From positions 1,054,001-1,118,000 of the forward strand of contig JABTTW010000001.1 of assembly GCA_015075745.1 (NCBI GenBank): 64,000 nucleotides of DNA, given 5' to 3'. Origin of the DNA: Planctomycetia bacterium (GTDB lineage Bacteria; Planctomycetota; Phycisphaerae; UBA1845; UTPLA1). Both the position numbers and the translations under genes were made by a program. Within the stretch, counting starts at the first letter, position 1. Each line of letters begins with the position of its first letter. This document shows positions 47,006 through 63,701 of this stretch, piece by piece. The notes below the pieces were generated by a model. The model searched no databases and was not told where the DNA came from. It worked only from the letters and a program-made list of their open reading frames with translations.

Positions 47006-47410
47006 GGATTTCAGTTCGTAATTGATTATAGGAGGCAATTCTGCCGGGGCGTAAATGGCCAATCTGTCTCGGCATATGAACGGTATACAAAGGACGCTTT
47101 TTTCATGTGACTCGGTGTCGGCGGTGTGCGCCACCGATCTTCGTTTTTCTAGTACTAGCGTCTGCGCACCTTCTGTACCAAATGCAACGCCTCCAGTGAG
47201 TTGAGCAGGGCTCGCCTTTCCGGACCCGATCGCAGGGTTGATCTGGAAGTACGGCGAGGCTTTCACGGTCCGGCGCGCGCTTCATTTGTTGGGGCACGCG
47301 ATCGGCGTACAGGGACTTATTGGCAAATGGGAAATTTCAGAAGCGTGGTTTCAGAATACAAAGCGACAGTGGGCACTTGCGGGGAGCGCGGAAGAAAAGG
47401 AGACACGATC

Positions 47411-50400
47411 ATGCGAGCAAAGGCAGCAGCAACGGCAGTGGTTGGCATTTTGGCCTTAGTTTTGAGCAGCGGCACAGCTTGGGGACGGCCTCCTGTCGTC
47501 GGTGCGTGGGGCAGCACCCAAGCCCTGTTCGACGATTCGCCAGGTGAAGGCGTGGCGCCTCGAGGTGTGGGTCCCGGGTTGCAGGCCGGCGCCGATCACA
47601 TCATTGCCTTCCAGTGCTTGAACAACGGATGGGGCTGGCCGCACGGTGGCTGCCCGACGACGTTCAACAACATTACCGGGCCGATCGCCCTGGGGCTCCT
47701 CAACGCCTACAGCCATACCGGAGACCCGGCGCATCTGGCCTCGGCCGTCGCCGGCGGAGGTTACGACCTGACATTCCAGTATCCCAACTTAGAGTTCCGG
47801 TTTGGGGCGATGACATCCTACTTTCTTTGGCAACTGAGCCTCGCCTCGGGTGACGTGCAATACAGCACCCACGCCGCAACAAAGTTCTTTGACGAGCTGA
47901 CGGCCGGCACGTATGGGCCTGGTGACCTGAACACTGCGAGTTGGATCGCGGCCGTCGAGGCTGGGCGAACCGGCACGTGGGTGAACTTGCGCCCGTGGGA
48001 ATTTCACACCATCATCCCGACAGCCGCAGCCATCGGCAATCCCGGCCAGGCCGCCCTGTTTGAACTGGGCCTGTTGAACGGTCTGAACACGCTCGACAAC
48101 ACCGCTCCTGCCACAGTGTACAGCGATCTGATCGGCCTGTCGGGCGGAGTGCGGGGCTTGGCGCTCAACAGCACGACAGCATTCACCGCGATCAACAGCC
48201 CGCTCCACGGTGGGATCAACGGGATCAGCACGCTCCAGGCACTTGCAGATCAGTTGGCCAGCTACCAGAACGCCGATGGTTCGTGGAACTGGCACTCAGA
48301 TCTCTCGAGCCTCGGCGGTGCAACTGAGACTGACAAAGACACACAGACCACCGCGTATGCCGTGCTAGCGCTCTTGGAGGCAGATCCGCTGGTCGTGTCA
48401 GACTACTCGACCAACATCGCCAAAGGCCGCGACTGGCTGCGATCCATGCAGTTGCCGACCGGTGGTTTCATGAGCTATCCGGGCGGCAGCGAGAACACCG
48501 AGGTCGAAGGCGAAGCGCTGAGCGCCTTGGTTCCCGATCCCTGCACCGACAATCGGCTGGAATTCCAGCTTGCCGCCGGTTCCGATTGCGTCAAGCCGGG
48601 TGAGACGATTCAGGTCGAGCTACACCAACTCAACCTGACCGGTCTCGTCGCCGGTTTCCAGGCATTCTCACAGTTCGACAGCTCGGCGATGACTTTCGTC
48701 GGCGGCACATACAACACGCCGTTGCCGTATGGCCAGCCGGTCATCACCCCGATCACGGCGGTCGGCGACGATATCGACATGGCCTCAGGCATCAACAACT
48801 TTGGCGGTCAGACGCCCACCATGGCCGATGCCTTGCTGGTGACGCTCTCATTCACGGCGGTGGCCGAAGGGCCGACGACAGTCAGCTTCCGTTCCCACAA
48901 TCCGCCCAATCGCTTCACCGACCCGGTTGGCGCTGAGGTCGTGCCGTGCCTGGTGCAGTCGCCGACGATCATCATTGACGGCACGCCGCCTGTGATTACC
49001 TGTCCGGCGAATGTCACGATCGAATGCGACGAGGATGATCAGCCGTCGAACACGGGCAGTGCCACGGCGACGGACAACCTCGACCCCAATCCGGTGATCA
49101 CGTTCAGTGACAGCGTGGCAGTCGGCGCTTGCCCGCAGGAGTCCGTCATCACGCGAACCTGGACGGCCACCGACTGCGCGGGCAACTCCATCACCTGTGA
49201 TCAGACCATCACGGTGGAGGATACGACGGCGCCGGTGATTACCTGTCCGGCGGACGTGACGGTTGAGTGTGACGAGTCGACCGCTCCCGGCAATACCGGT
49301 GAGATCGTGATGATGCCGTTCGACGTGAATCCGACGCTCAGCGCGACCCAGGCGCCCGGAGTCTGGTACACGGACCGCTATGCGCCGGCAGGATTCGTGA
49401 GCGCATCCTTCGGCGGTGATAATCGGCTGAAGCACTCGATCAACGCGAGCGACTGCTCGCCTTGTCGCGGCGGGGGCTTCACCAGCGGCTTCTACGACAC
49501 GCAGGGACGCAAGTACGACATATTGGGCACGACGAAGATGTCGATCGACCTCTACATTCCGTCCGCTTGGGGAACGACTGGGCGGCGCATGGCCGGCTTC
49601 TGGGGTACCGGGTTCAACTCGAGTGCAGCCTTAACACAGTCCTTCCCGATCATCGAGTTCACGAGCAGTCCCGACGGCAGCGGCGTGGCACGTTTCCGTG
49701 GCTGGGATAATGGATGGATCGATATGGGTCTGCCGACCGGCTTTGTCTATGACGCGTGGTACACGCTGACGATCGAGCTTGTTGGAACCAACTGGGTCTA
49801 CACGGTCGGCGACTTGTCGCTGACTGTTACAGCTATTGACACTGGCGGTACGAGTGTGCAGATCGGCAACGTCATCCTGCAAGGTCATAACAACACGGCG
49901 GGCGTGACCTATGACATCTATTGGGATAATTTCGTCGCCACGGCGTTTCCGGTGGCGACTGACAACTGCGATCCGGCTCCGGTGATCACGTTCAGTGACA
50001 GCGTGGCAGCCGGCGCTTGCCCGCAGGCGTCCGTCATCACGCGAACCTGGACGGCCACTGACTGCGCGGGCAACTCCATCACCTGTGATCAGACCATCAC
50101 GGTGGAGGATACGACGGCGCCGGTGATTACCTGTCCGGCGGACGTGACGGTTGAGTGTGACGAGTCGACCGCCCCATTGAACACCGGTTCGCCGGGACAC
50201 TTCCAGGGCTTTGAAGATCCGGGCTTCGCGAGCAACACGAACCCGGACTGGAACAATTTCAACAGTTCGCTCTCGCGCGTGGCCTCGGGCACGGGCGGGA
50301 TCACTTCGAAGTCGGGAGGATTTCACGCGGTCATCGACTCGACCTCGCTGCCTCCTAACCCAGACGACTTTACAGGTGCGTTCACCAGACTCGGCGGCTA

Positions 50401-52030
50401 TCAATCGGCGTTCGGCGGCGGCTTCTGCGTGGAGCTCGACGTATATATGGATCTGTCCGACCCCGCGGTCGCCGCCAACACCTATGGATGGGATCTATCC
50501 GCGGCGGCGAACAACCAGTCGGGATCACACCTCCGTGATTTCATCTTCCACACCGCGTCGAACGCGTCCGGGAACATCCTGGTGGGCGGAAGCAACAACA
50601 CCAACTTCACCCGCCGCAACGACCTTGGCAGCATCAACCACTACACCATCACGTCGACGGGCTGGTACCGGTTCCAGTGGGTATTCCGCGACGCGGGCGA
50701 CGGTTCGTTGGCGGTTGACCTCAATCTTCTTGACGCAGGCGGCACGCTGCTGTTTACGGAGACGCGCAACAATTCGGGCGACTTGATTGCAACGCTTGTC
50801 GGCGGCCATCGCTACCTGTGGTTCACATTCCTTGAGGTCGACACGCTTGCGATCGACAACACCACGGTGTCGAACTCGGCGCAGGCGACTGACAACTGCG
50901 ATCCGGCGCCGGTGATCACGTTCTCGGATGTCAGCACGCAGACGAGCAACGGAAGCTGCACCGACTCCAGTTACACGATCACGCGGACCTGGACGGCGAC
51001 AGACGCCTGTGGCAATTTCAGTACCTGCGATCAGATCATCACGGTGGACGACACGACCGCGCCGGTGTTGAGCGCATGTCCAGCCGACATCACGAAGAAT
51101 GCCGACGCGGGCGGATGCACTGCGGTGGTTACCTGGACCGATCCAACGGCGATGGACAATTGTGATCCGGCGCCGACCGTGGTCTGCGTGCCGCCGAGCG
51201 GCTCTATCTTCTCAGGAGGAACCACCACGGTGACCTGCACGGCGACCGATGCCTGCGGGAACTCCTCGCAGTGCTCGTTCGATGTGACGGTCAGCGGATC
51301 CAACGAGATGGTGGTCAGCATCGACCTGCAAGCCGCCGTGGCTGCTGGTCCATTCACGCGCTGCATCACCTTCGAGTTGTGGAATTGTCCTGACACGGCG
51401 CCGGTTGCGACCGTGGACGAGGTGATGACCTTCACCGGCGGTTCGGCGAGCGCAACGGTCCTGGTGCCGTGCGGCACGTACACCTGCGTGACGGCTCGCG
51501 ACAAGTTGCACACGCTGCGGCGGACGCTCGACCCGTTGCCGACTGTTGGGACTCAATATGTCGCTGACTTCGCGGCTGCCGGCAAGGATTTGCTCGGCGG
51601 CAACCTGAACGACGATTTCTGGATCGACATACTCGACTTCGGCGTGTACTCGAGCCAGTTCGGTACGAGCCCGGGGGCCAGCACCACCTGCGCGACTGCT
51701 TCGCCGCACAGCGATATCAGCGGCGACGGTTTGGTCGGCACCGGCGACTTCACCTTCATCCAGATCAACTTCCTGCTCGGCCACGAGGCCAACTGCTGCG
51801 GGCAGCCCCTGTTCATGGCAGGTGAGGGCGGTAGCGGTCCCGTGACCGAGATCAAGGTGGCCGATTTGCGGGCCCAAGGTCTGGGTGACTTAGCGGCGGG
51901 TGATCTGAACCGTGACGGTGTACTGAATCAGTCGGATATCGTTGAATTCATCAACGGGGCCCGGCCAACGCCGAGACCCCAACGCCGACCGATTCAGGAA
52001 GAGAGCAGGAACATCCCGCTGGGCGACTAA
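47411..52030 (+). CDS. Giant secreted multidomain protein (toroid, cohesin-like, HYR, LamG-like, dockerin-like)
   Basis: The 1539-residue protein has GGAG before the ATG and a signal peptide (AVVGILALVLSSGTAWG). Domains in order: an alpha/alpha-toroid region resembling terpenoid cyclase/prenyltransferase repeats, about residues 50-370 (YQNADGSWNWH, SMQLPTGGFMSYPGGSENTE); a cohesin-like beta domain, 379-515; an HYR-like module, 525-630 (TPPVITCPANVTIECDED); a LamG/jellyroll-like insert, 630-847; a second HYR-like module, 850-924; a second jellyroll-like insert, 925-1156; HYR-like modules to about 1293; a small Cys-rich beta domain; a dockerin-like calcium pair, 1393-1463; and a final DLNRDGVLNQSDI motif near 1496. 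It is probably a cell-surface or matrix protein; enzymatic activity is unproven. Confidence 0.82.
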   Translation: MRAKAAATAVVGILALVLSSGTAWGRPPVVGAWGSTQALFDDSPGEGVAPRGVGPGLQAGADHIIAFQCLNNGWGWPHGGCPTTFNNITGPIALGLLNAYSHTGDPAHLASAVAGGGYDLTFQYPNLEFRFGAMTSYFLWQLSLASGDVQYSTHAATKFFDELTAGTYGPGDLNTASWIAAVEAGRTGTWVNLRPWEFHTIIPTAAAIGNPGQAALFELGLLNGLNTLDNTAPATVYSDLIGLSGGVRGLALNSTTAFTAINSPLHGGINGISTLQALADQLASYQNADGSWNWHSDLSSLGGATETDKDTQTTAYAVLALLEADPLVVSDYSTNIAKGRDWLRSMQLPTGGFMSYPGGSENTEVEGEALSALVPDPCTDNRLEFQLAAGSDCVKPGETIQVELHQLNLTGLVAGFQAFSQFDSSAMTFVGGTYNTPLPYGQPVITPITAVGDDIDMASGINNFGGQTPTMADALLVTLSFTAVAEGPTTVSFRSHNPPNRFTDPVGAEVVPCLVQSPTIIIDGTPPVITCPANVTIECDEDDQPSNTGSATATDNLDPNPVITFSDSVAVGACPQESVITRTWTATDCAGNSITCDQTITVEDTTAPVITCPADVTVECDESTAPGNTGEIVMMPFDVNPTLSATQAPGVWYTDRYAPAGFVSASFGGDNRLKHSINASDCSPCRGGGFTSGFYDTQGRKYDILGTTKMSIDLYIPSAWGTTGRRMAGFWGTGFNSSAALTQSFPIIEFTSSPDGSGVARFRGWDNGWIDMGLPTGFVYDAWYTLTIELVGTNWVYTVGDLSLTVTAIDTGGTSVQIGNVILQGHNNTAGVTYDIYWDNFVATAFPVATDNCDPAPVITFSDSVAAGACPQASVITRTWTATDCAGNSITCDQTITVEDTTAPVITCPADVTVECDESTAPLNTGSPGHFQGFEDPGFASNTNPDWNNFNSSLSRVASGTGGITSKSGGFHAVIDSTSLPPNPDDFTGAFTRLGGYQSAFGGGFCVELDVYMDLSDPAVAANTYGWDLSAAANNQSGSHLRDFIFHTASNASGNILVGGSNNTNFTRRNDLGSINHYTITSTGWYRFQWVFRDAGDGSLAVDLNLLDAGGTLLFTETRNNSGDLIATLVGGHRYLWFTFLEVDTLAIDNTTVSNSAQATDNCDPAPVITFSDVSTQTSNGSCTDSSYTITRTWTATDACGNFSTCDQIITVDDTTAPVLSACPADITKNADAGGCTAVVTWTDPTAMDNCDPAPTVVCVPPSGSIFSGGTTTVTCTATDACGNSSQCSFDVTVSGSNEMVVSIDLQAAVAAGPFTRCITFELWNCPDTAPVATVDEVMTFTGGSASATVLVPCGTYTCVTARDKLHTLRRTLDPLPTVGTQYVADFAAAGKDLLGGNLNDDFWIDILDFGVYSSQFGTSPGASTTCATASPHSDISGDGLVGTGDFTFIQINFLLGHEANCCGQPLFMAGEGGSGPVTEIKVADLRAQGLGDLAAGDLNRDGVLNQSDIVEFINGARPTPRPQRRPIQEESRNIPLGD
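49091..49285 (+). repeat. 195-base intragenic direct repeat, copy 1
   Basis: Encodes most of an HYR-like module (ITFSDSVAVGACPQESVITR, then TWTATDCAGNSITCDQTITV and DTTAPVITCPADVTVECDES). By eye it differs from the copy at 49979 at only about three positions over the same length. Confidence 0.85.
49979..50173 (+). repeat. 195-base intragenic direct repeat, copy 2
   Basis: Same length and orientation as the copy at 49091, 888 bases downstream in the same gene. The differences seen are GTC/GCC (Val/Ala), GAG/GCG (Glu/Ala) and a silent ACC/ACT. The near identity, with unrelated inserts after each copy, indicates recent duplication or gene conversion. Confidence 0.85.
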
Positions 52031-53402: not shown

Positions 53403-54446
53403 CTACCCTCCCAGCTTGATCATGCCGGTCCGCTGCTCAAGGGATCCGGCGAGGCTCTTTTTGGCGATTGCCGCGTCGATCAGGCAGTCCGCCAGATGGG
53501 TGTCAAGACTCTGCCTCTCCCAACATTGTGAGAGACTGATATGTCGCGAATCGAGCAAACATGGGAAGAGCAGTCCGTCGGCGGTGACACGCATTCGCCG
53601 GCATTGTCCGCAAAACGGTTTCGAGAGCGGCGCGATGATGCCGATTACGCCGCGATGCCGGGCATTGGAGGCGACGAATCTTGTAGAGGTTTCGCCGCTC
53701 GCGCTTGGGAGCGGCCTGAGAAGGTATCGAGACTCGATCTGTCGGAGGATTCTCTGCTCCGGAACGAAATGCGAACGATTGAACTCGGCCGCCTGGCCGA
53801 TCGGCATGGCTTCGAGGAAGCGAATCTCAAACCCACGATCGATCGCCCACTCTGCGAGATCGGCAAGGCTGTCGTCATTGTGACCGCGAAGGACGACGGT
53901 GTTGATCCTGGGCGGCGGGAAGCCTGCATCGAGCGCGGCGGAGAGTCCGCCGATCACGTGATCGACGCAGCCACCGGTGAGCGCTCGATACCGCGTCGGA
54001 TCAATCGTATCCAACGACACGTTGAGGCGGTCGAGACCCGCGTTCCGGAGATCGCGGGCCATCTCGGCGAGGCGCAGGCCGTTGGTCGTCATGGCGAGCG
54101 ACAGATCGGGCGCTGCATCACGTATGCGGGCTATGAGATCGACGATCGAACCGTGCAAGAGCGGCTCACCGCCGGTCAGACGCAATTGGCGAAGGCCTCG
54201 GTGTGCGTAAAGATGACTGACGAGGTCCAGTCGCTGGTCATCCGTCAGGCTTGCGCGGGACGACGGCGGGCAGGCTCCGGGGCGGCAATACAAACAGCGC
54301 AGGTTGCAAGCGGACGTGACCGAAAGCCGAAGATGATCAATGGTCCTGCCGTGGGTATCGGTGATCGGGTGCTTTTCGAGTACGGAAAGCGAAACGGCCG
54401 GGCCGATCGTCGCCTCGGGATGGTTTGAACAGGCATCGGCCTTCAT
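53403..54446 (-). CDS. moaA: GTP 3',8-cyclase, molybdenum cofactor biosynthesis
   Basis: MoaA is a radical-SAM enzyme that starts molybdopterin synthesis from GTP. This 347-residue protein has the N-terminal cluster motif with Cys47, Cys51 and Cys54 (TSACNLRCLYC), the SAM-binding GGEPLL, and the C-terminal cluster (KPFCGQCRRMRVTADG and FPCL), and ends in the conserved Gly-Gly tail (KLGG). The ATG at 54446 lies 23 bases after the previous stop with GGAAGGAG upstream; longer forms begin inside that gene. It is the last gene of the molybdoenzyme operon, so the cell expresses a dedicated copy together with the enzyme that needs the cofactor. No moaB/C/D/E or moeA is seen here. Confidence 0.93.
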   Translation of the reverse strand: MKADACSNHPEATIGPAVSLSVLEKHPITDTHGRTIDHLRLSVTSACNLRCLYCRPGACPPSSRASLTDDQRLDLVSHLYAHRGLRQLRLTGGEPLLHGSIVDLIARIRDAAPDLSLAMTTNGLRLAEMARDLRNAGLDRLNVSLDTIDPTRYRALTGGCVDHVIGGLSAALDAGFPPPRINTVVLRGHNDDSLADLAEWAIDRGFEIRFLEAMPIGQAAEFNRSHFVPEQRILRQIESRYLLRPLPSASGETSTRFVASNARHRGVIGIIAPLSKPFCGQCRRMRVTADGLLFPCLLDSRHISLSQCWERQSLDTHLADCLIDAAIAKKSLAGSLEQRTGMIKLGG

Positions 54447-54468
54447 CGTGTGCCACGCTTCTCCTTCC

Positions 54469-55419
54469 TCATGATTGAGATGGGGCTGGCGTCGCGGCCG
54501 CGGCGGCGCAGGCTTGATAGATTTCCGAGCATCGCGCGCAGATCGGCTCATCCGCCGTCCAACTGGAAAAATCCTCGTGAATGGCCACATGCAGCGGCTG
54601 GTCATCCTTGTGCCCGATCGCCCAATCGAATGTGGGAAATCCGCAGAGAGAACACGCGGATCCGGGCGTCGGGGCTGACTCATCACAAGATTCGGTCACG
54701 ACATGGCGCAACTGCGGAAGCCCATTCTCGGCCCAGTCGAGCAGCGTGCGATGATTCGGCAAGTCCGTCTCCGATTGCCGCCAGAGTTCTTTGAACGCGA
54801 GATCGGTCGATTCGTCCGTGAGAATTCCGAAAGCACGCGCCAGTTCGGCCCGCCTCTTCGCCTCGACGCTCGCGGGCGCCTGGCCGCGGTGAGCAAGCCG
54901 CCCGTCGACGAAGAGGGCCCAGAGAACAGCGTACCGATCCTGGACAAGGTTTCTCGCGGCCGGGGTGGCGCCGGCCGGTTTTCGAGCCACGTCGTATCCG
55001 AAGTCGGGCGTGAGCATGTCGTCGATGTGCAGGAATTCGTGACGGGCCCAGTATTCGAAGGCGGAACCATCGAGCAGAGTCGACGGGGCAATCGAGATGA
55101 TGACCGTGTATTTTTCCGGCGATCCGAATAGCTCCGCGGTCTGCGACTTGGGGCTCGACGCCTGGGTGACCATGACTCGACTCACGGCGCTGCGAATATG
55201 GGCGAATTCATCAACCACTCCGAGTATCAGCTTGCGAAGACCCATTTCGGCAAACCAGCGCTCGTGCAGATCGGCGAATGCCCGATCGCGCTCGGTTGGA
55301 TCGCGCTGTTCGTAGCAATTGGAGAACTGTCGCTCGTAGAGGGAGCGGACGGTCTCGTCCTTGCGCGCCCATTCGAACACGGTCCGCTCGATGAGATTCG
55401 GTTGCACGGCCAGATACAT
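54469..55419 (-). CDS. Unknown protein with HExxH motif and zinc-ribbon-like tail
   Basis: This 316-residue protein is encoded between the TorD-like chaperone (2 bases upstream) and moaA (23 bases downstream), so it is very likely co-transcribed. Residues 127-131 form HEFLH followed by IDD, a HExxH metal-binding pattern in a helical context. The C-terminus has Cys256-x2-Cys259 and Cys294-x2-Cys297, the spacing of a zinc ribbon. It has no signal peptide, so it is cytoplasmic. I do not recognise the family. Maturation or quality control of the molybdoenzyme is suggested by context only. A minigluzincin-like peptidase or a metal-binding assembly factor are both possible. Confidence 0.75.
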   Translation of the reverse strand: MYLAVQPNLIERTVFEWARKDETVRSLYERQFSNCYEQRDPTERDRAFADLHERWFAEMGLRKLILGVVDEFAHIRSAVSRVMVTQASSPKSQTAELFGSPEKYTVIISIAPSTLLDGSAFEYWARHEFLHIDDMLTPDFGYDVARKPAGATPAARNLVQDRYAVLWALFVDGRLAHRGQAPASVEAKRRAELARAFGILTDESTDLAFKELWRQSETDLPNHRTLLDWAENGLPQLRHVVTESCDESAPTPGSACSLCGFPTFDWAIGHKDDQPLHVAIHEDFSSWTADEPICARCSEIYQACAAAAATPAPSQS

Positions 55420-55421
55420 GG

Positions 55422-56189
55422 TCAGTCCCTCTGATTCATGGCCGCGGCCAGGTGCGGACCGAGTTCCACGGTTCCGGGCGCGCCGCAGGTGATGGATGAG
55501 TCCTCGTCAGTGATCTCGCGAAGCTCCAGCCAGCCCGGGCCGATCTGAACATTGAGGCAGGCACACCATTCTTTTAACAATTCATGACTCAAGTCCGAAA
55601 GTTTCGCCAGTGCCGATTCGGGGCCCGCACGTTGGATTCGGCCGAAGAACGCGGGCATCCACGAGGCGGCGTGTTCGCGTAGGAATTCCCGTTGGGCGTC
55701 CACGCATCTGGTCGCCTCCTCGGGTTTGTCCGCGATGCACTCCATCATTGAGAGCACGGCGAGGAATTCCCACTGAGTCGCGACGTGGTCTCCTCTTTCC
55801 ATCGTGGGTCCGGTCACGTCGAACCCGAATGCGCGATAGAAGCCCATCATGTCGGCGAGCGTCTGACTCTGTTGAAACACCTCGGAGCCGCGGTACTCGA
55901 GTTCATAGGGCGGGCAATCGGACCGGACGGTATGGCCCAGCAGCCTGCCGTAATCCTGTTCGAGGACGATTCCGTCCTTCATGCTCTCGAAGAACGCGCT
56001 GACTCCAGCCGTCGCCAGCCCCAGACTTCGCGCAGCCTCGCGAATCTCCTCCTGAACGGCCTGATGGCAAAACCGATCCGTGTTCTCGCGGCAAGGCTCT
56101 GCAAAACCCGCGGCGATCAATCTGGCCAGCTTCGCCCGCGCAAGCGCGATGACGCTAGATGGTGTTGGCGTGCATTTCCGATCGGACAT
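55422..56189 (-). CDS. TorD/NarJ-family molybdoenzyme chaperone
   Basis: The 255-residue cytoplasmic protein is all-helical. Features of the TorD/DmsD/NarJ family are LEQDYGRLLGHTVRSDCPPYELEYRGSEVF shortened here to its hallmark PPYELEY, and DHVATQWEFLAVL, the E-Y/H-x-P...D-H region that binds Tat signal peptides. It should hold the alpha subunit unfolded until the molybdopterin is inserted. The ATG at 56189 overlaps the 3' end of the beta subunit gene and has a GGTGGAGGAG ribosome-binding site; a longer frame from 56246 is less likely. Confidence 0.86.
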   Translation of the reverse strand: MSDRKCTPTPSSVIALARAKLARLIAAGFAEPCRENTDRFCHQAVQEEIREAARSLGLATAGVSAFFESMKDGIVLEQDYGRLLGHTVRSDCPPYELEYRGSEVFQQSQTLADMMGFYRAFGFDVTGPTMERGDHVATQWEFLAVLSMMECIADKPEEATRCVDAQREFLREHAASWMPAFFGRIQRAGPESALAKLSDLSHELLKEWCACLNVQIGPGWLELREITDEDSSITCGAPGTVELGPHLAAAMNQRD

Positions 56190-57432
56190 GGATGGGCTCC
56201 TCCACCTGTGTACGGAAGATTTCGCGATCCTTCTTGTCGAAGGCAATGATCGTGTCGTTGAACATCTCGAATTTCTTGTCGGCTACGGTCGATTCCCAGA
56301 CCTTGGGGCCTTCCTTGATTTCGTAGCGGTGAATAATCCGATTGGATCGCCGGAAGAGCTGCAGAACGGCAAGCAATTCCCGATCGGGCGCGCGGTATCG
56401 TTCGACGGCGTCCTGTACGCCGGGGCCGAACATCTGCTCCAGGTACTTGGTGGGCACCCAACGAGGTGGGATGTAGTAGCCGTTGGGCTCAGTTCCGAAC
56501 TGGGCATAGAGCGGCAGCGCGACCTTGGCGACATGCACAAGGTAATAGAGCGGGTTGTAGCGATCTTCGATCCAGGTGTTGTCCTCGTTGACTTGAACGA
56601 GGCCCTGCATGCGCACCTGTCCGATGCAGGCCGACATGCACCGCGTTTCCATCGGGACGCCATCGGACTCGGGGTCGGTCCCTTCGACGCGAGGGTAGCA
56701 GGCGATGCACTTCTCGCTGGTCCGGGTTGTTCCGCGGTAGAGCGACTTCTTGTACGGGCAGGCCTCAACACACTTGCGATATCCGCGGCACTCTTTTTGG
56801 TCGATGAGGACGATACCGTCCTCGGGTCGCTTGTAGATCGAATTGCGAGGGCAGGCTGCGAGGCACGCCGGATAGCTGCAATGGTTGCACAGCCGAGCGA
56901 GATAGAAGAACCAGGCCTTGTGCTTGTTCTGTCCGGTTGCGTCCTCGCCCTTGCCGAAGTCCATGGGACGGGTCAGTCCGCCCGGCGGCGTGTCTTCGTG
57001 GATATTGGGTGACCGCCACTCGTCCTCCGTTGGCAGGTATCCGAGCACCTGATTAGGCTGGGCTCCACGGGCGACGACATCCGGACACTCGAAGATCGTC
57101 CGGCCTTTCAACTCACCGTACGGCTTGCGCGTGTCGCCGTTCGGACTTCCGATCCACTGAACGCTTTCCGGATTCGCCTGGGCGAGCAGGTCGAGAATCT
57201 TGACATCCCAATTCTGCGGGTAGCCGCCGTACGGCTTTGTTTCGACGTTGGTCCACCACATGTGCTCCTGGCCTTTGGAGAAGGTCCAGGTGCTTTTGCA
57301 GGCCATCGTGCATGTCTGACATCCGATGCAGCGATTGATGTTGATGACGAAGGCGAACTGCTGCTTCGGCGACGCCTGCGGATGGGGGTAGCTCATCGAC
57401 CGGCCGAGTTGCCAATTGTATACGTTGCTCAT
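56155..57432 (-). CDS. Nxr/NarH-type Fe-S beta subunit
   Basis: The 425-residue protein carries electrons between the alpha and gamma subunits through four clusters. Cys motifs: 35/38/41/45 (CIGCQTCTMAC), 182/185/190/194 (CNHCSYPACLAAC), 215/221/225 with Tyr218 in the place of the fourth ligand (CRGYRKCVEAC), which implies a [3Fe-4S] cluster, and 242/245/265/269. The strings VYNWQLGRSMSYP, FSKGQEHMWWTNVETKPYGG and EPNGYYIPPRW closely match nitrite oxidoreductase beta subunits of Nitrospira and anammox bacteria as I recall them. No signal peptide is seen, as expected for export with the Tat-tagged alpha subunit. It is followed by the chaperone gene, which it overlaps. Confidence 0.92.
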   Translation of the reverse strand: MSNVYNWQLGRSMSYPHPQASPKQQFAFVININRCIGCQTCTMACKSTWTFSKGQEHMWWTNVETKPYGGYPQNWDVKILDLLAQANPESVQWIGSPNGDTRKPYGELKGRTIFECPDVVARGAQPNQVLGYLPTEDEWRSPNIHEDTPPGGLTRPMDFGKGEDATGQNKHKAWFFYLARLCNHCSYPACLAACPRNSIYKRPEDGIVLIDQKECRGYRKCVEACPYKKSLYRGTTRTSEKCIACYPRVEGTDPESDGVPMETRCMSACIGQVRMQGLVQVNEDNTWIEDRYNPLYYLVHVAKVALPLYAQFGTEPNGYYIPPRWVPTKYLEQMFGPGVQDAVERYRAPDRELLAVLQLFRRSNRIIHRYEIKEGPKVWESTVADKKFEMFNDTIIAFDKKDREIFRTQVEEPIHVRSEMHANTI

Positions 57433-57447
57433 GATGGACTCCTCGCC

Positions 57448-57765
57448 CTATAGAACCGGGAGGTTTACCGCTCCGCCCGGGTTACGATCCACTTGTAGTC
57501 TTGCTGCACGCGGTCCACGCAGCAGGAACTGTTGCTGAATCATCTCACGAATGACATTCATACCGAGTTGGGTGACGGCCAGCGCCGGGCCGGCGAATTG
57601 CCCGCTCTCGAACATCTCCCCAATGGACGCGGCGCTGTGGCCGAGGCGAACATATTCCTCGATGAAGCACTCGGCCATTTCGCGTACTGAACCGGGATCG
57701 TCCACAGCCAGCTCCACGCCGGTCAGCGTCATCGGATCGGTTGAGTCAGGGTCCTGGTATGGCAT
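57448..57765 (-). CDS. 105-residue protein of unknown function within the operon
   Basis: The gene lies between alpha (36 bases upstream) and beta (15 bases downstream). The protein is acidic in its first half, helical, and ends in a basic and Pro/Gly stretch (RGPRAARLQVDRNPGGAVNL). It has no Cys, no signal peptide and no membrane segment. The position suggests an accessory factor for assembly or a small subunit, but no family was recognised. Confidence 0.72.
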   Translation of the reverse strand: MPYQDPDSTDPMTLTGVELAVDDPGSVREMAECFIEEYVRLGHSAASIGEMFESGQFAGPALAVTQLGMNVIREMIQQQFLLRGPRAARLQVDRNPGGAVNLPVL

Positions 57766-57801: not shown

Positions 57802-60800
57802 TTAGAATCCCTCGAACTCGACTGCCGGCGCGGTGTCATCGCCACCCACAAATCCGCCGGCAAGGTATTTCTTCATCTTGTCGCTTTCCGCGCCCGGCGA
57901 CATTCCGTTTGTGGCGGGCAGCCAGATGCCCTTGCCGCCGAGGCCGCCGTCCTCCGCCTTGGTGACGCGAACAAGCGTTTCCTTCGGAACGGTATTGATG
58001 GCGTGATTGTCGGCCTCGCCGCCGAAGATGAATCCCATGAAGACTTTGGCCTTGTGAAAGAGATTGTCGGTCTGGTGCATGGGCATGTGCCAGTTGCGGG
58101 TGAGACTCTGCTGAGAGCCGTAGCGGAGATTGGCCTGGTACCCATCATCCGACAGCGCCCGGCCATCGGGCCGCGTTTCGTGCGCCTTGACGCTCTTCTC
58201 GGTGGCGATGTAAGGCGAGTGCTTGATCATGATGCAGTTGTAGGGATAGGCCGGATTGAAGACGGCCCGAAGCATCAGCCGCGCGACCTTGTAGTATGGA
58301 TCATTCGGCTTCGCGCCCATGTAAGGCCGGTCCGCCGGATTGGCATCAACGTAGACGTAATCGCCGTTGTTGATGCCGATATCCCTTGCCGCTTGTGGGT
58401 TGATGTGCATCTGATGATCGCCCACGTAGGGAGAGCGTTTATCCATCCGATGCGGATCGCCGAAACTGCTGTCGTAGATGTTGTGCCAATCGACGTTGCT
58501 CCACGATGAGTGGACGCGATGCCGAGTCTTGGGCGTCAGGGCGTAGAACTTGAAGCCCTTCTCCCAGAGGAAGTTCCGCGTGAGCTTGATCTGCTTCCAG
58601 GGCAGCTTGATGTTTCGCACCGTTCGTTCGTCCCAATGCTCGGCCTCGGGGCCGATGCCGTAGTCGTCCGGTCGAATGTATGGGTTGCTCGACATGATGA
58701 CGTTCGGCAGATAGGGCGTCGCCTCGGTCCCCTCGCGGTGAACGATGAAGTTCTCGCCGTATTCGATCGCCTCCGGAATGTCCGCGTAGGCATGAAGTCG
58801 TCCGGTGTCGGTATGAAACGGCTCGTCGTTGTGCACCTGCTCCCAGAAGGGAATGCGCGGATACGTCCTAAAGAGCATCAGCGCAGCGCCCGGCGGGCCG
58901 TACTTTCCGGCCATGATGTCTTCGAGCTTGTACCCGACCGTCGTCGTGCTGCTGTCGAGCAGCCGCTGGAGATAAATGCTCCTCTTCCCCTCATGCTCGA
59001 ACTTGAAATAGTCGTAGAACTTCTGCTTCCACTGGCCGCCAAGCTCTTCTCCGATCGCCCTGGAGATGTTGGCGAGTATCCAGAGGTCGTCCCGCGAGTC
59101 AAAGACCGGCTTGATGCCGCCCTTCCATATCTGAAGGAACGGGTTGGAGCAGGAGGCCGTCACCTCCAAGTCCTGGAACTCGACCCAACTATTGGCCGGA
59201 AGACCGAAGTCGGCGTACTGCACCGAAGCTGTCATCACGATGTCCTGCGAGATGATCATCTCGATGTTCGGGTTGACGTTCTTGAACATCTCGTAGGCAT
59301 GCTTGGCGTTGTTGAACAAGTTCACGTTCGTGAACTGCAGCGCCTTGGTCGGCGTCGGCATGTGTGTCTTGCCGGTGAACACCTTGCGCCCGTCCTTCGG
59401 TGTATTCACGATGAGCGGCCGGTCGCCGTGATTCCAGTAGGCGGGCTCCTCGTCTTTCGCGTAGTTGTGAGCATGCACGGCCTTGCCGGGCGCCTTTTCA
59501 TCGAGATTCACCTCGAACGGATCCTCAGCGACCCACCCCTTGAAGCCCGGGCCGGTGATGGCGCTGCCCTGGAAGAGGGCCGCCTTGTAATTACCGGCCC
59601 ACCCGTGACAACCTGCGCCCGGCTTGCCGATGTTGCCGGTCAACAAAATCGGAAGAAGTGCCGCGCGATTGGCCTCGGTCGCATGGAACCAGTGATTGAT
59701 GCCTTCGCCCTGATGAATCGCGACTGGCCCGCCGGATTTGGTGACGTCCCAGATATCGCGGGCAAGTCGTTCGATCAATTCCGCAGGTGAATGGGTGACA
59801 TCGGCGACGCTTTCCAGGTCGTAATCCTTCAGGTGAATCTGGTACATGGACCAGAGCGTCATCACCTCGACTTCACTGCCGTCGGCCAGCTTGATCGTCC
59901 ACGTGCCCTCAAGGGCCGGTTCGATCTTTCGGGATCGCATCCGTCCGCCGACGTCATCGCGCGTGAGCGCCACCGGCTTGTTCGTCTTTGTATCCCATAT
60001 GACGCGGTCGCCGAGGGTCTGATGCTGTTCGGCAGTGAACCCCTGGACCTTCATGCTCGGTCCATCCGGGGCGAGGGTGCTCTTGTAGCCGGCGAAGACC
60101 TCTTCCGCTCGCAGCCGCTTCAGATTGTCGGTTCGGACCAGCAGCGGGAAGTCCGTGAATTCCTTGACGAATTTCTCGTCGTACCAGCCGCGGTCCATCA
60201 TGAGCCGAGTCACACCGAGCCAGAGCGCCGCGTCGGTGGCCGGCCGGATCGGTATCCAATAATCGGCCTTGGTACTGGGGGCCCCGTATTCGGGGGCGAT
60301 GACAACGATGCGGCCGCCGCGCTCCATGCACTCGATGAACCAGTGGGAGTCGGGAAGCTTGTTCTCCACCAGGTTCTTGCCGTCCATGATGATGAGCTTG
60401 CTGAAACGCAGGTCGTTGAAGTCGCAGTCCGAGTTTTGCAGCCCGTGGACCCAGGGTTGTCCGGGCGTCTGATCGCCGTGCCAGGTGTAGTTGCTCCAGT
60501 TTCGGCCGGCCTTGGCGGTCTCCGGCCCGACATTGCGAATCGCCGCGTCGAGCATCGCCATGCTGTTGTTCAGCCGGTACATCCCATACTTGCCGAGGAC
60601 GCCGAGCAGGCCCATGCCGCCGCGCATCTTGAAGGTGCGCGTGCCTGCGCCCTCCATCGGCTCAAGCATCTCTTCGGGGTAGCCTTGCTCACGCAGAAGC
60701 TTCGCGCCTTCGTCGCCGCTGTAACGCTTACCGATGGTGATGTATCCCTTGGCGATGTATTTCAGCGCGCTGTCCCAGTCGATCTTGACGTGAACGTCGG

Positions 60801-61311
60801 TGCCGCGCGAGTCGAACTTGTATTTCGTCTTGTTCTCCGGCGTCAGCATCGGGAATCCGTCGTCGGCCCACTCTTTCCAGCCTTTTCGAATGATCGGGTG
60901 CTTGAGGCGATAGGGGCCGTAGACCAGCCGATGGAAGGTGTATCCCTTCGCGCATTGCCGCGGGTTCCAATTGGCGGTGGCTTTGTTGCCGTAGAGATCG
61001 GCGTACTTCTCGGAGTCGTATTGGGAGCCCATGCGCGTGATAACGCCATTCCGGGTATAGGCGAGGACGCGGCATGCGTGCGTATCGTTCGGCGAACAAA
61101 CCCAACTGAAGGTGCCGTCGTAGGCGTACTGATCGCGATAGATTTTTTCCCAATCGCGCGCGGGATATCCGGCGAGCGGGTTTCCTACATCGGGTCGGGC
61201 CGCGAGTGCCTGAAGCGGCCAGCTCAGAACGCCGCTTGCTCCCGCGGCGAGAACGACAGAAGTTCCCAGGAACTCGCGTCGCGTGGTCTCAGGTGCCTGC
61301 CGTAAAGCCAT
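57802..61311 (-). CDS. Tat-exported molybdopterin catalytic subunit, NxrA/NarG-like
   Basis: The 1169-residue protein belongs to the type II DMSO reductase family. It has a Tat signal (TTRREFLGTSVVLAAG), so the enzyme works in the periplasm. The Fe-S site FS0 is Cys72-x3-Asp76-x3-Cys80 with Cys120 (CSPNDTHAC; RQCAKG), in which Asp replaces one Cys ligand. A likely Mo-ligand Asp is in YTWHGDQTPG (Asp280). The whole N-terminal third (KATANWNPRQCAKGYTFHR, VYGPYRLKHPIIRKGWKEW, GAGTRTFKMRGGMGLLG) resembles Nitrospira/anammox NxrA. It interconverts nitrite and nitrate, or acts on a similar oxyanion. The ATG at 61311 has AGGAG upstream; it lies 45 bases after the gamma gene. Confidence 0.92.
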   Translation of the reverse strand: MALRQAPETTRREFLGTSVVLAAGASGVLSWPLQALAARPDVGNPLAGYPARDWEKIYRDQYAYDGTFSWVCSPNDTHACRVLAYTRNGVITRMGSQYDSEKYADLYGNKATANWNPRQCAKGYTFHRLVYGPYRLKHPIIRKGWKEWADDGFPMLTPENKTKYKFDSRGTDVHVKIDWDSALKYIAKGYITIGKRYSGDEGAKLLREQGYPEEMLEPMEGAGTRTFKMRGGMGLLGVLGKYGMYRLNNSMAMLDAAIRNVGPETAKAGRNWSNYTWHGDQTPGQPWVHGLQNSDCDFNDLRFSKLIIMDGKNLVENKLPDSHWFIECMERGGRIVVIAPEYGAPSTKADYWIPIRPATDAALWLGVTRLMMDRGWYDEKFVKEFTDFPLLVRTDNLKRLRAEEVFAGYKSTLAPDGPSMKVQGFTAEQHQTLGDRVIWDTKTNKPVALTRDDVGGRMRSRKIEPALEGTWTIKLADGSEVEVMTLWSMYQIHLKDYDLESVADVTHSPAELIERLARDIWDVTKSGGPVAIHQGEGINHWFHATEANRAALLPILLTGNIGKPGAGCHGWAGNYKAALFQGSAITGPGFKGWVAEDPFEVNLDEKAPGKAVHAHNYAKDEEPAYWNHGDRPLIVNTPKDGRKVFTGKTHMPTPTKALQFTNVNLFNNAKHAYEMFKNVNPNIEMIISQDIVMTASVQYADFGLPANSWVEFQDLEVTASCSNPFLQIWKGGIKPVFDSRDDLWILANISRAIGEELGGQWKQKFYDYFKFEHEGKRSIYLQRLLDSSTTTVGYKLEDIMAGKYGPPGAALMLFRTYPRIPFWEQVHNDEPFHTDTGRLHAYADIPEAIEYGENFIVHREGTEATPYLPNVIMSSNPYIRPDDYGIGPEAEHWDERTVRNIKLPWKQIKLTRNFLWEKGFKFYALTPKTRHRVHSSWSNVDWHNIYDSSFGDPHRMDKRSPYVGDHQMHINPQAARDIGINNGDYVYVDANPADRPYMGAKPNDPYYKVARLMLRAVFNPAYPYNCIMIKHSPYIATEKSVKAHETRPDGRALSDDGYQANLRYGSQQSLTRNWHMPMHQTDNLFHKAKVFMGFIFGGEADNHAINTVPKETLVRVTKAEDGGLGGKGIWLPATNGMSPGAESDKMKKYLAGGFVGGDDTAPAVEFEGF

Positions 61312-61356
61312 GATCAATCTCTCCTACGCCTGAGGGCGCGTTGGTGTCGCTTTCAA

Positions 61357-63186
61357 TTATTCAATGACCAGCTTCTGCCAGATGCTGATGCTCTTCTTTC
61401 CATCCCGGTCGCCGGCGCTGCCGTCCCAGATCGCAAAGGAGATCGGAAGATAGTCACCGGGGCGAAAGACGCGTTCTTCCATTCCGTCGTTTTCGTGCTG
61501 GCACGGGGGCTCCAGCGAGCGCTGCATTTGCACCGACCACACCCCGCGGTTGTAAACGGCGCTGCCTTGAACGAGTTGCGCGGACGACGGCTTTCCCGCA
61601 AGCGTCCCGGGCCCGCGCGCGACGAGGCATTCCACGGGGGTCTTGAGCTCGGGATCGGCGACCAGATTGCCCGCGCCCCAGGCCGTGATGAACAGCGGAT
61701 TGTGTTGCGTGATTTCGCCGTGCGCCCAGTCCACATCCGACATGTCTTTCCCCCGGATGGGACATTCTTCGTACATGTCTACAACAAGATTGGGAAACGC
61801 GGCGTCCACGTCCTGATAGCCGCTGTCGATGTTCTTTTGCCGATCCGCCTTCCACATCCAGATATTCACGCCGCCGTGCTGCGAAGCATCTCCCATGTAG
61901 AACGGCGGGTCGCTGGAGAGGGAGAACTGGATGGCGATCGCGTCGCGAAACTCCCCAACACGCACGGCTTGATCGTCCTGAACTGCATCCAGCCAGGTGA
62001 GCCGAATGGCGAGCTCCTCGCCGTTGTGCATGGCCTGGGCGACGAGTCCCTCCACGCGCTCATCGCTCCACCACAGCGGCGTCAGACCGACATAGGCCGG
62101 TCGCGCCTGGTCCCATGTGGCGTCATCCGGGCCGGCGGGGAGAGATCCCATGATGCGGGGCGCGGTGATGGTGCTTTGTCGGAGCTGGGCTCGATCTTGC
62201 GAGCCGGATCGGGCGAGCGACTGCACAAAATGAATCAGATCCCAGGTATCGTCACTGGAATAGTTTCCCTCGTAGGCCGGCATCGGTGTGCCGCGCATGC
62301 CTTTCATGATGCGGCAGTAGAGAGCCGGTCCGTCCATGCCTCCCTTAAAGATGCCGTTCACGAATGACCGCGGCGGGTCGGGATAGCCTTCGTCGTCGAA
62401 CTTGACGGCCTCGGGTAGTGGGTGGCCATCCGGTCCGTGACAGGAAGCGCAGGCCTCCAAATAAACCCGTCGACCGTTGAACCATCGCAGATCATCCACC
62501 CTGGGTTCCGGCGGCACCACGATGGATGCGCCGGGCGATATGCGATCGGCCAAGAGAGCATCTATCTCGGAAGGGTCGATTTGGCCGCTGTCCGCTTCAG
62601 TCTTTAATTGCGCCCGGACGGCGTCGGCGTGAATCTGCCGAACATGGGCCACGAGGGCTTGCAGGTCGGAAATCGGGAGATGGCCCCAGGGCGGCATCGC
62701 GGAGCCGGGCATTCCCCGCGAGATGGTTCGCATGAGGTCTTCGTCCGAGGGTATCTGGTTCTCAGTCGTGGCCAGCTTGAACTTTCCTGACTTCAGGTTT
62801 CGCGGCCGCGGGTTCATCAAATAAGCAAACTTGCCGGCGCCGTCGCCCGCCTCGCCATGGCAAATCGCGCACTGCGTGGCGAAGAGTTGTCGTCCTCGTT
62901 CGAGCAAAGTGGGTGGCTGTGACGCGTTCGCCGCAACTGAGTCGGGTTCCCCTTGGCCCGAGGCTGATTGGGGCGGCGTCGATGGCGGCTCATAAGACGC
63001 ATGGTCTTTTACGACGAACGCCTGCGGGGCCCCGTTGGGCAGGGATTCGCCCTTGAAGGCCTTCCCAGATGAGTCATTGGGCAGTTCAGCGTTTCCCGCC
63101 TGAAGTGCACAACTGACGAGCGTGATAACGATGCCCAGCAGCCAGATGGTGGGAAGCCAGTACTTGTTTGACCTGGATGAAGCCAT
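61357..63186 (-). CDS. Diheme cytochrome c fused to NxrC/EbdC-like haem b gamma subunit
   Basis: This 609-residue lipoprotein or exported protein (membrane segment 10-26 ending LVSC) has two class I cytochrome c domains with Cys106-x2-Cys-His110 (CAICH) and Cys246-x2-Cys-His250 (CASCH), each followed by a distal Met region (GSAMPPWG; GTPMPAYEGNYS). The last 270 residues are an ethylbenzene-dehydrogenase-type haem-binding domain (LWWSDERVEGLVAQAMHNGEELAIRL ... shortened here to LWWSDERVEG), as in gamma subunits of Nxr, selenate and chlorate reductases. GGAGG precedes the ATG. This first operon gene would take electrons from or give them to periplasmic carriers. Confidence 0.88.
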   Translation of the reverse strand: MASSRSNKYWLPTIWLLGIVITLVSCALQAGNAELPNDSSGKAFKGESLPNGAPQAFVVKDHASYEPPSTPPQSASGQGEPDSVAANASQPPTLLERGRQLFATQCAICHGEAGDGAGKFAYLMNPRPRNLKSGKFKLATTENQIPSDEDLMRTISRGMPGSAMPPWGHLPISDLQALVAHVRQIHADAVRAQLKTEADSGQIDPSEIDALLADRISPGASIVVPPEPRVDDLRWFNGRRVYLEACASCHGPDGHPLPEAVKFDDEGYPDPPRSFVNGIFKGGMDGPALYCRIMKGMRGTPMPAYEGNYSSDDTWDLIHFVQSLARSGSQDRAQLRQSTITAPRIMGSLPAGPDDATWDQARPAYVGLTPLWWSDERVEGLVAQAMHNGEELAIRLTWLDAVQDDQAVRVGEFRDAIAIQFSLSSDPPFYMGDASQHGGVNIWMWKADRQKNIDSGYQDVDAAFPNLVVDMYEECPIRGKDMSDVDWAHGEITQHNPLFITAWGAGNLVADPELKTPVECLVARGPGTLAGKPSSAQLVQGSAVYNRGVWSVQMQRSLEPPCQHENDGMEERVFRPGDYLPISFAIWDGSAGDRDGKKSISIWQKLVIE

Positions 63187-63272: not shown

Positions 63273-63701
63273 TTATTTTCTCCGATGCGGCCGTCCGCTC
63301 AGGCCCTCCTGGCCGATTTCGGCGAGGGTTGTTTCCTCGAGCATCTGGTGATAGGCCATTGAGATCGGCTTCCAGTATTCGTGAAAGCCGCAGGGGCGGT
63401 CGTCATTGCAACGAGGCTGGCCGAAGGGACAACGGGACCGGTCCAGCACGTCATCGTAGGGGGACAGAATGTCAAGGAGCTTGATCTTGTTGCGCGGCTT
63501 CGTCAGGCGAAAACCGCCGCCGACGCCGCGGGATGAATCGAGGAGGCCTGCCCGGACGGCGGTGTTCAGGATCCGCGACAAGTATTGGGAGGGCACTCCG
63601 GTATGCGCGGCGATTTCCTTCGCCAGCACCGGAGTTTTTCCGTCCTGCGCGGCGATATAGACGAAGGCGCGAAGCGCATATTGTGCGGTCGTGGATAACA
63701 T
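63273..63701 (-). CDS. Rrf2-family transcription regulator with three-Cys Fe-S motif
   Basis: The 142-residue protein has the Rrf2 winged helix (MLSTTAQYALRAFVYIA ... LAKEIAAHTGVPSQYLSRIL ... SSRGVGGGFRLTKP) and Cys91-x6-Cys98-x5-Cys104, close to the IscR/NsrR cluster pattern. It should bind an Fe-S cluster and sense NO, oxygen or cluster status. It is encoded just upstream of the respiratory operon, so control of it is likely. A possible own promoter (TTGACG, 17-base spacer, TAAAGA) lies between 63702 and 63741; its -10 is close to the start codon, which would give a very short leader. Confidence 0.92.
   Translation of the reverse strand: MLSTTAQYALRAFVYIAAQDGKTPVLAKEIAAHTGVPSQYLSRILNTAVRAGLLDSSRGVGGGFRLTKPRNKIKLLDILSPYDDVLDRSRCPFGQPRCNDDRPCGFHEYWKPISMAYHQMLEETTLAEIGQEGLSGRPHRRK

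Follow-up and report, generated by a model that had tools for sequence, protein, structure and literature searches.

A gamma subunit combining a haem b domain with two predicted haem c sites, encoded directly upstream of nxrA in a planctomycete

Periplasmic nitrite oxidoreductases (NXR) of the type found in Nitrospira and anammox bacteria use gamma subunits of the EB_dh type (PMC8387239, PMC3578206). In the solved NXR-C of Kuenenia stuttgartiensis (Kustd1704, 7b04_C) haem b is the only haem. It is ligated by Met155 and Lys305 and lies behind a groove for an outside partner, which must take the electrons (PMC8387239). EbdC (2ivf_C), the gamma subunit of ethylbenzene dehydrogenase, likewise has a haem b domain and no haem c; it belongs to a soluble enzyme with a different substrate. 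In NarGHI the place of gamma is occupied by the cytochrome b anchor NarI, an unrelated membrane protein. A protein that unites haem c sites with a haem b domain, alt_NxrC, was described in Nitrospina (PMC3578206). In Nitrospira moscoviensis, alt_NxrC is a diheme cytochrome c described as a candidate for gamma (PMC6606698), and the protein also occurs in other Nitrospinae (PMC8026999). Its role in NXR was left open in these studies. The alt_NxrC genes belong to a bd-like oxidase/cytochrome cluster apart from nxrAB and occur beside a separate short NxrC. An earlier report on Planctomycetota with nxrA of the clade treated here put forward nitrite oxidation as a hypothesis; the gamma architecture is absent from its text (PMC10732223).

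We analysed a window of 64,000 nucleotides (contig JABTTW010000001.1 of assembly GCA_015075745.1) from a Planctomycetia bacterium, a groundwater-type planctomycete. The cluster is read on the minus strand in the order rrf2, gamma, nxrA, orf105, nxrB, torD, orf316, moaA (Table 1). This order was retained in relatives as far as their contigs extend, with rrf2 and moaA not detected in some.

Table 1. Features of the nxr cluster and of the fused gamma subunit (positions in the window)
Feature	Position	Strand	Basis or remark
Rrf2-family regulator, upstream of the gamma gene, three Cys	63273..63701	minus	PF02082
Fused gamma subunit (NxrC-like), 609 aa	61357..63186	minus	single ORF, Pfam domains, fold
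Hydrophobic N-terminal segment ending in lipobox-like LVSC (C26)	63109..63186	minus	sequence; prediction only
Di-haem cytochrome c domain, residues 91-326	62209..62916	minus	phmmer 3.3e-34 to 6h5l_B; Foldseek 6h5l_B, TMt 0.88
Haem c 1 site CAICH (C106, C109, H110), residues 106-110	62857..62871	minus	96/96 fused homologues
Met164, predicted distal ligand of haem c 1	62695..62697	minus	96/96 fused homologues
Haem c 2 site CASCH (C246, C249, H250), residues 246-250	62437..62451	minus	96/96 fused homologues
Met302, predicted distal ligand of haem c 2	62281..62283	minus	96/96 fused homologues
EB_dh haem b domain, residues 358-609	61360..62115	minus	PF09459; matches 7b04_C and 2ivf_C
Met431, haem b ligand	61894..61896	minus	phmmer-aligned with KsNXR-C Met155; 96/96 fused and 6/6 short gammas
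Lys598, haem b ligand	61393..61395	minus	phmmer-aligned with KsNXR-C Lys305; 96/96 fused and 6/6 short gammas
nxrA, catalytic Mo subunit	57802..61311	minus	Tat signal TRREFLG; FS0 motif C73..N76 D77..C81..C121
orf105, small conserved 105-aa protein, nxrA-nxrB interval	57448..57765	minus	no Pfam match
nxrB, Fe-S electron-transfer subunit	56155..57432	minus	
TorD/NarJ-type chaperone, start codon uncertain, overlaps nxrB	55422..56246	minus	PF02613, TIGR03482
orf316, conserved cluster protein, C-terminal Cys pairs	54469..55419	minus	no Pfam match
moaA, molybdenum cofactor synthesis, start uncertain	53403..54686	minus	TIGR02666

The type of the enzyme was deduced from NxrA. This subunit matched Kuenenia NXR-A from end to end with 1734 bits, compared with 89-95 bits for E. 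coli NarG and 156 bits for EbdA, and in a search of the phylum Planctomycetota its identity to anammox NxrA was 64-65%. The residues of the Fe-S motif (C..ND...C) are conserved, and the Tat motif at the N-terminus was read by eye; inspection of NxrB by eye revealed no signal peptide. The ORF as listed opens at 61317 (TTG), with an ATG at 61311. By this relationship the enzyme is of the periplasmic NXR type known from Nitrospira and anammox bacteria, and not a NarGHI. As such periplasmic enzymes have gamma subunits of the EB_dh family, the ancestral partner is not NarI. Thus, the view of the initial annotation that the fused gamma replaces a NarI-type anchor was not upheld. Its observation that the operon lacks a NarI-like cytochrome b was confirmed and extended: the family PF02665 gave no match in the gamma gene or in the genome, which is 97% complete. 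These zero matches, together with the Tat signal and the periplasmic relationship of NxrA and NxrB, make it highly improbable that the enzyme is coupled to quinone by NarI or another cytochrome b anchor encoded elsewhere.

The gamma gene starts with ATG at 63186, preceded by GGAGG, and continues to the stop codon at 61357-61359 with no internal stop. The product is composed of an N-terminal signal or anchor, a linker rich in Pro and Ala, a di-haem cytochrome c domain and an EB_dh haem b domain, in this order. Pfam detected cytochrome c twice (5.9e-19) and EB_dh with 8.5e-19 and 68.9 bits (cut-off 33.3). The NCBIfam model for the gamma subunits of type II DMSO reductases (TIGR03477) scored 111.6 bits, below its curated cut-off of 169.85, which has to be counted against our explanation. 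Two CxxCH motifs are present, against a chance expectation of 0.003 given the composition of the protein, and the gene is the only ORF of at least 90 codons in the window with any CxxCH. Full-length orthologues were found in 14 other genomes of the same order (60-72% identical). Each is encoded in one frame, so the fusion is real, and about 100 fused homologues also have a single frame. Hence the single chain with two CxxCH sites and an EbdC-type haem b domain, as initially annotated, was verified by the intact ORF, the Pfam domains and the orthologues. The annotation had named a split ORF caused by a sequencing error as a possible objection. The joining of two neighbouring genes by sequencing or assembly error was ruled out by the orthologues, which come from separate assemblies, and by the further homologues; with the confident two-domain fold described below, the probability of such an artefact is negligible. 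A genome-wide family search detected one EB_dh domain, the one in this gene. The fused gene is the sole gamma subunit in the host genome.

Both CxxCH sites, M164 and M302 are kept in all 96 fused homologues compared, and two His/Met c haems are therefore predicted. The proposal of a plausible Met axial ligand for each site was thereby borne out. M159 was rejected as ligand of haem c 1, as it is kept in only 75 of the 96. In the haem b domain M431 and K598, the counterparts of the Kuenenia ligands, were invariant across the 102 aligned gammas, 96 fused and 6 short. At one locus of a Verrucomicrobiales MAG (L114:6715-8319) the fused gamma has CASSH in place of the second CxxCH, which is either a haem loss or a sequence error.

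Residues 89-609 were modelled with AlphaFold2 from 102 sequences (pLDDT 92.2, pTM 0.89). For the EB_dh half, the best PDB matches in Foldseek were Kuenenia NXR-C (TMt 0.75) and EbdC (TMt 0.79). The fold and the haem b domain are shared with both, and the Met/Lys ligands align with those of NXR-C. Unlike these two proteins, the gamma of the window adds two CxxCH sites with Met ligands; EbdC also belongs to an enzyme whose catalytic subunit is far from NxrA, as the bit scores given above indicate. The best match of the other half was Kustc0458 (6h5l_B), with the same di-haem cytochrome c fold and 33% identity. Kustc0458 differs in being a free-standing subunit of an HAO-like complex without EB_dh fusion. 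Among the PDB matches there was no solved chain with both halves.

The closest relative in architecture is alt_NxrC of Nitrospina gracilis, Nitrospira moscoviensis (alt_NxrC_2) and anammox bacteria, in which di-haem c and EB_dh are likewise combined in one chain. Our comparison was made with the anammox copies; those of Nitrospira and Nitrospina were set apart by their descriptions. A C-terminal membrane helix is present in five of five anammox copies and is described for alt_NxrC (PMC6606698), whereas it was found neither in the gamma of the window nor in any of 101 in-operon fused homologues. Furthermore, the gene studied here lies directly upstream of nxrA, holds the only EB_dh domain of the genome and is not accompanied by a bd-like oxidase cluster. 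In the tree of EB_dh domains the anammox type with C-terminal helix was separate from the in-operon type. A single clade of all fused domains was not rejected (p-AU 0.32), therefore neither one nor two origins of the fusion are shown. The combination of di-haem c and haem b is already known; new is its place directly upstream of nxrA, as the only gamma. No description of the in-operon fusion was found in the literature (open-licence papers).

By analogy with alt_NxrC the fused protein might be an accessory respiratory cytochrome, with another, short NxrC as the working gamma. The Brocadiaceae, anammox bacteria with a short NxrC beside nxrB and, at a distance of about 5 kb, a fused protein, would fit such a role, as would the expression of alt_nxrC_2 below that of nxrC_2 in N. 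moscoviensis (PMC6606698). For the planctomycete we regard it as improbable. Its genome has a single EB_dh domain, it is the fused and not a short gene that adjoins nxrA in this clade, and both the C-terminal helix and the oxidase cluster of alt_NxrC are missing here.

As had been suggested in the initial annotation, the same fusion was sought in other Nxr-like operons. Genomes were scanned with an NxrA alignment, and the best 80 of 537 relatives were taken, among which Nitrospira and Nitrospina are absent. At 70 of these 80 nearest nxrA loci the fused gene adjoins nxrA directly upstream. The remaining ten comprise seven contig ends, one gene about 4 kb upstream, one effect of ORF boundaries and the CASSH variant mentioned above. 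The 70 loci belong to Planctomycetota (22), Verrucomicrobiota (16), Omnitrophota (11) and Acidobacteriota (7), with one to three loci each in Methylomirabilota, Rokuibacteriota, Latescibacterota, Gemmatimonadota, Hydrogenedentota and Fidelibacterota; three are unassigned. The resulting count of at least ten phyla is approximate, some MAG names being doubtful (records titled Akkermansia or Gemmatimonas). In 392 Planctomycetota genomes the fused gene was located within 5 kb for 37 of the 41 nxrA with at least 53% identity, Brocadiaceae being set aside in this count. For a second Planctomycetota nxrA clade (39-43% identity) the corresponding number was 0 of 23; a short EB_dh gamma was seen in both examined loci of this clade (L190, L196). 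In the NxrA tree 28 rows with fused gamma formed one clade (SH-aLRT 99). Outside this clade were a pair from a second anammox family (f85), which likewise has the fused gamma immediately upstream of nxrA, and a single, very distant row that also has a fused gamma. One anammox genome (G246) has two nxr operons: in the first the fused gamma precedes nxrA on the upstream side (L189:8181-9758), and the second has a short gamma (L190). The position of the fused gene beside nxrA in at least ten phyla suggests that the protein is the real electron exit of the enzyme. A fusion locked beside nxrA in many phyla and, in the genome studied here, the only gamma is strong genetic evidence for real NXR subunits. 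This touches two questions of the literature, the electron exit from periplasmic NXR and the membership of alt_NxrC in the enzyme (PMC3578206, PMC6606698, PMC8026999).

The N-terminus of gamma is predicted to be either a signal peptide with lipid anchor or a signal anchor. It is followed by a variable, flexible linker of about 60 residues. Of 101 fused homologues, 93 have a hydrophobic N-terminus and 31 a lipobox-like motif, where 7.0 were expected from shuffles. With 31 of 101, a conserved lipid anchor was rejected as a general rule. An N-terminal membrane tether is likely, the type varying among homologues.

In our judgement the fused protein is quite probably a genuine gamma subunit, and the only one, of a periplasmic NXR of the Nitrospira/anammox type, with a built-in path from haem b to two c haems and an acceptor other than quinone. 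Nitrite would be oxidised at the periplasmic Mo site of NxrA. Electrons would pass one at a time through the Fe-S cluster of NxrA and those of NxrB to a Met/Lys haem b of high potential, located in the C-terminal domain of gamma, and from there to the two His/Met c haems of the fused N-terminal domain; the order of the haems and the transfer between them are deduced. The di-haem domain is thus a candidate partner for haem b within the chain, compared with the outside partner of NXR-C. From the c haems the electrons may reach an acceptor on the periplasmic side, such as a soluble cytochrome c, a cupredoxin or, directly, an aa3 cytochrome c oxidase; quinone would not be used. The single hydrophobic N-terminal segment and the linker would tether the complex to a membrane. 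The initially proposed exit through c haems and not through a quinone-binding NarI is therefore retained, whereas the soluble carriers named with it are an assumption and a tethered complex is probable. Cytochrome c is already the expected acceptor for nitrite-derived electrons. The potential of nitrite/nitrate is +420 mV. For Kustd1711, a di-haem cytochrome encoded in the nxr cluster of Kuenenia, the potential is +350 mV (PMC11791136). Compared with that of nitrite, this value makes a transfer to c haems energetically reasonable.

The direction in the cell is doubtful, because NapA and a NorB-like protein are present, NnrS is encoded beside the cluster, and a RuBisCO large subunit was not found in the genome. 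The same enzyme may work in reverse and reduce nitrate in the periplasm, with cytochrome c supplying electrons from a bc1 complex or alternative complex III via the c haems and haem b. We consider this possible, at clearly less than even chances. NXR is reversible (PMC12758564), and the nitrate-reducing planctomycete Thermogutta terrifontis is among the relatives of this NxrA clade (PMC10732223, PMC5673643). Autotrophy is not evident in the host, and the NorB-like protein, assigned from a COX1 match and its sequence and named by no family model, suggests together with NnrS a respiration or detoxification of nitrogen oxides. In contrast, this genome already encodes NapA for the periplasmic reduction of nitrate, an aa3 cytochrome c oxidase is at hand for high-potential electrons, and in the nearest NxrA group those enzymes that have been studied by experiment, from anammox bacteria and Nitrospira, oxidise nitrite. 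A cytochrome c assembly protein was also detected in the genome; an NirK equivalog and HZS alpha were not. Without HZS alpha an anammox-type host was rejected. On balance, nitrite oxidation to nitrate is slightly favoured over nitrate reduction.

More tentatively, and as a possibility which we would not yet call probable, the in-operon fused gamma may mark an undescribed NXR clade spanning several phyla. With a membrane-tethered haem b-c-c wire of its own, the enzyme would be a complete nitrite:cytochrome c oxidoreductase or one docking to the oxidase. If this is true, nitrite oxidation would occur in uncultured Planctomycetota, Verrucomicrobiota, Omnitrophota, Acidobacteriota, Methylomirabilota and others outside the known nitrite oxidisers. 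The cluster offers a single-operon target for the order and potentials of the haems and for the acceptor.

The neighbouring genes were also compared. The Rrf2 gene has the same place in most relatives and was not found in L041, L044 and L045; the three Cys of the regulator could hold an Fe-S cluster. Further upstream, just past the end of the window, an NnrS with DUF1858 domains is encoded (L032:14543-16417, minus strand), which hints at nitric oxide regulation or stress. orf105 was found in every relative with fused gamma and a sufficiently long contig, and was not seen in the anammox clusters examined. orf316 has a counterpart in anammox bacteria between torD and nxrA. Apparently it holds the position of Kustd1701 and is a conserved protein of NXR clusters, perhaps a maturation factor. 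At another locus (L075:4236-7292) the gene just upstream of the fused-gamma operon encodes a protein of 1019 aa, which has three CxxCH and two membrane helices and matches EB_dh weakly. On the plus strand of the window, an ORF of 1609 aa (47201-52030) contains VTCP..VTVECDES motifs in repeats that look HYR-like by eye, and its C-terminus resembles a dockerin; it probably encodes a secreted protein.
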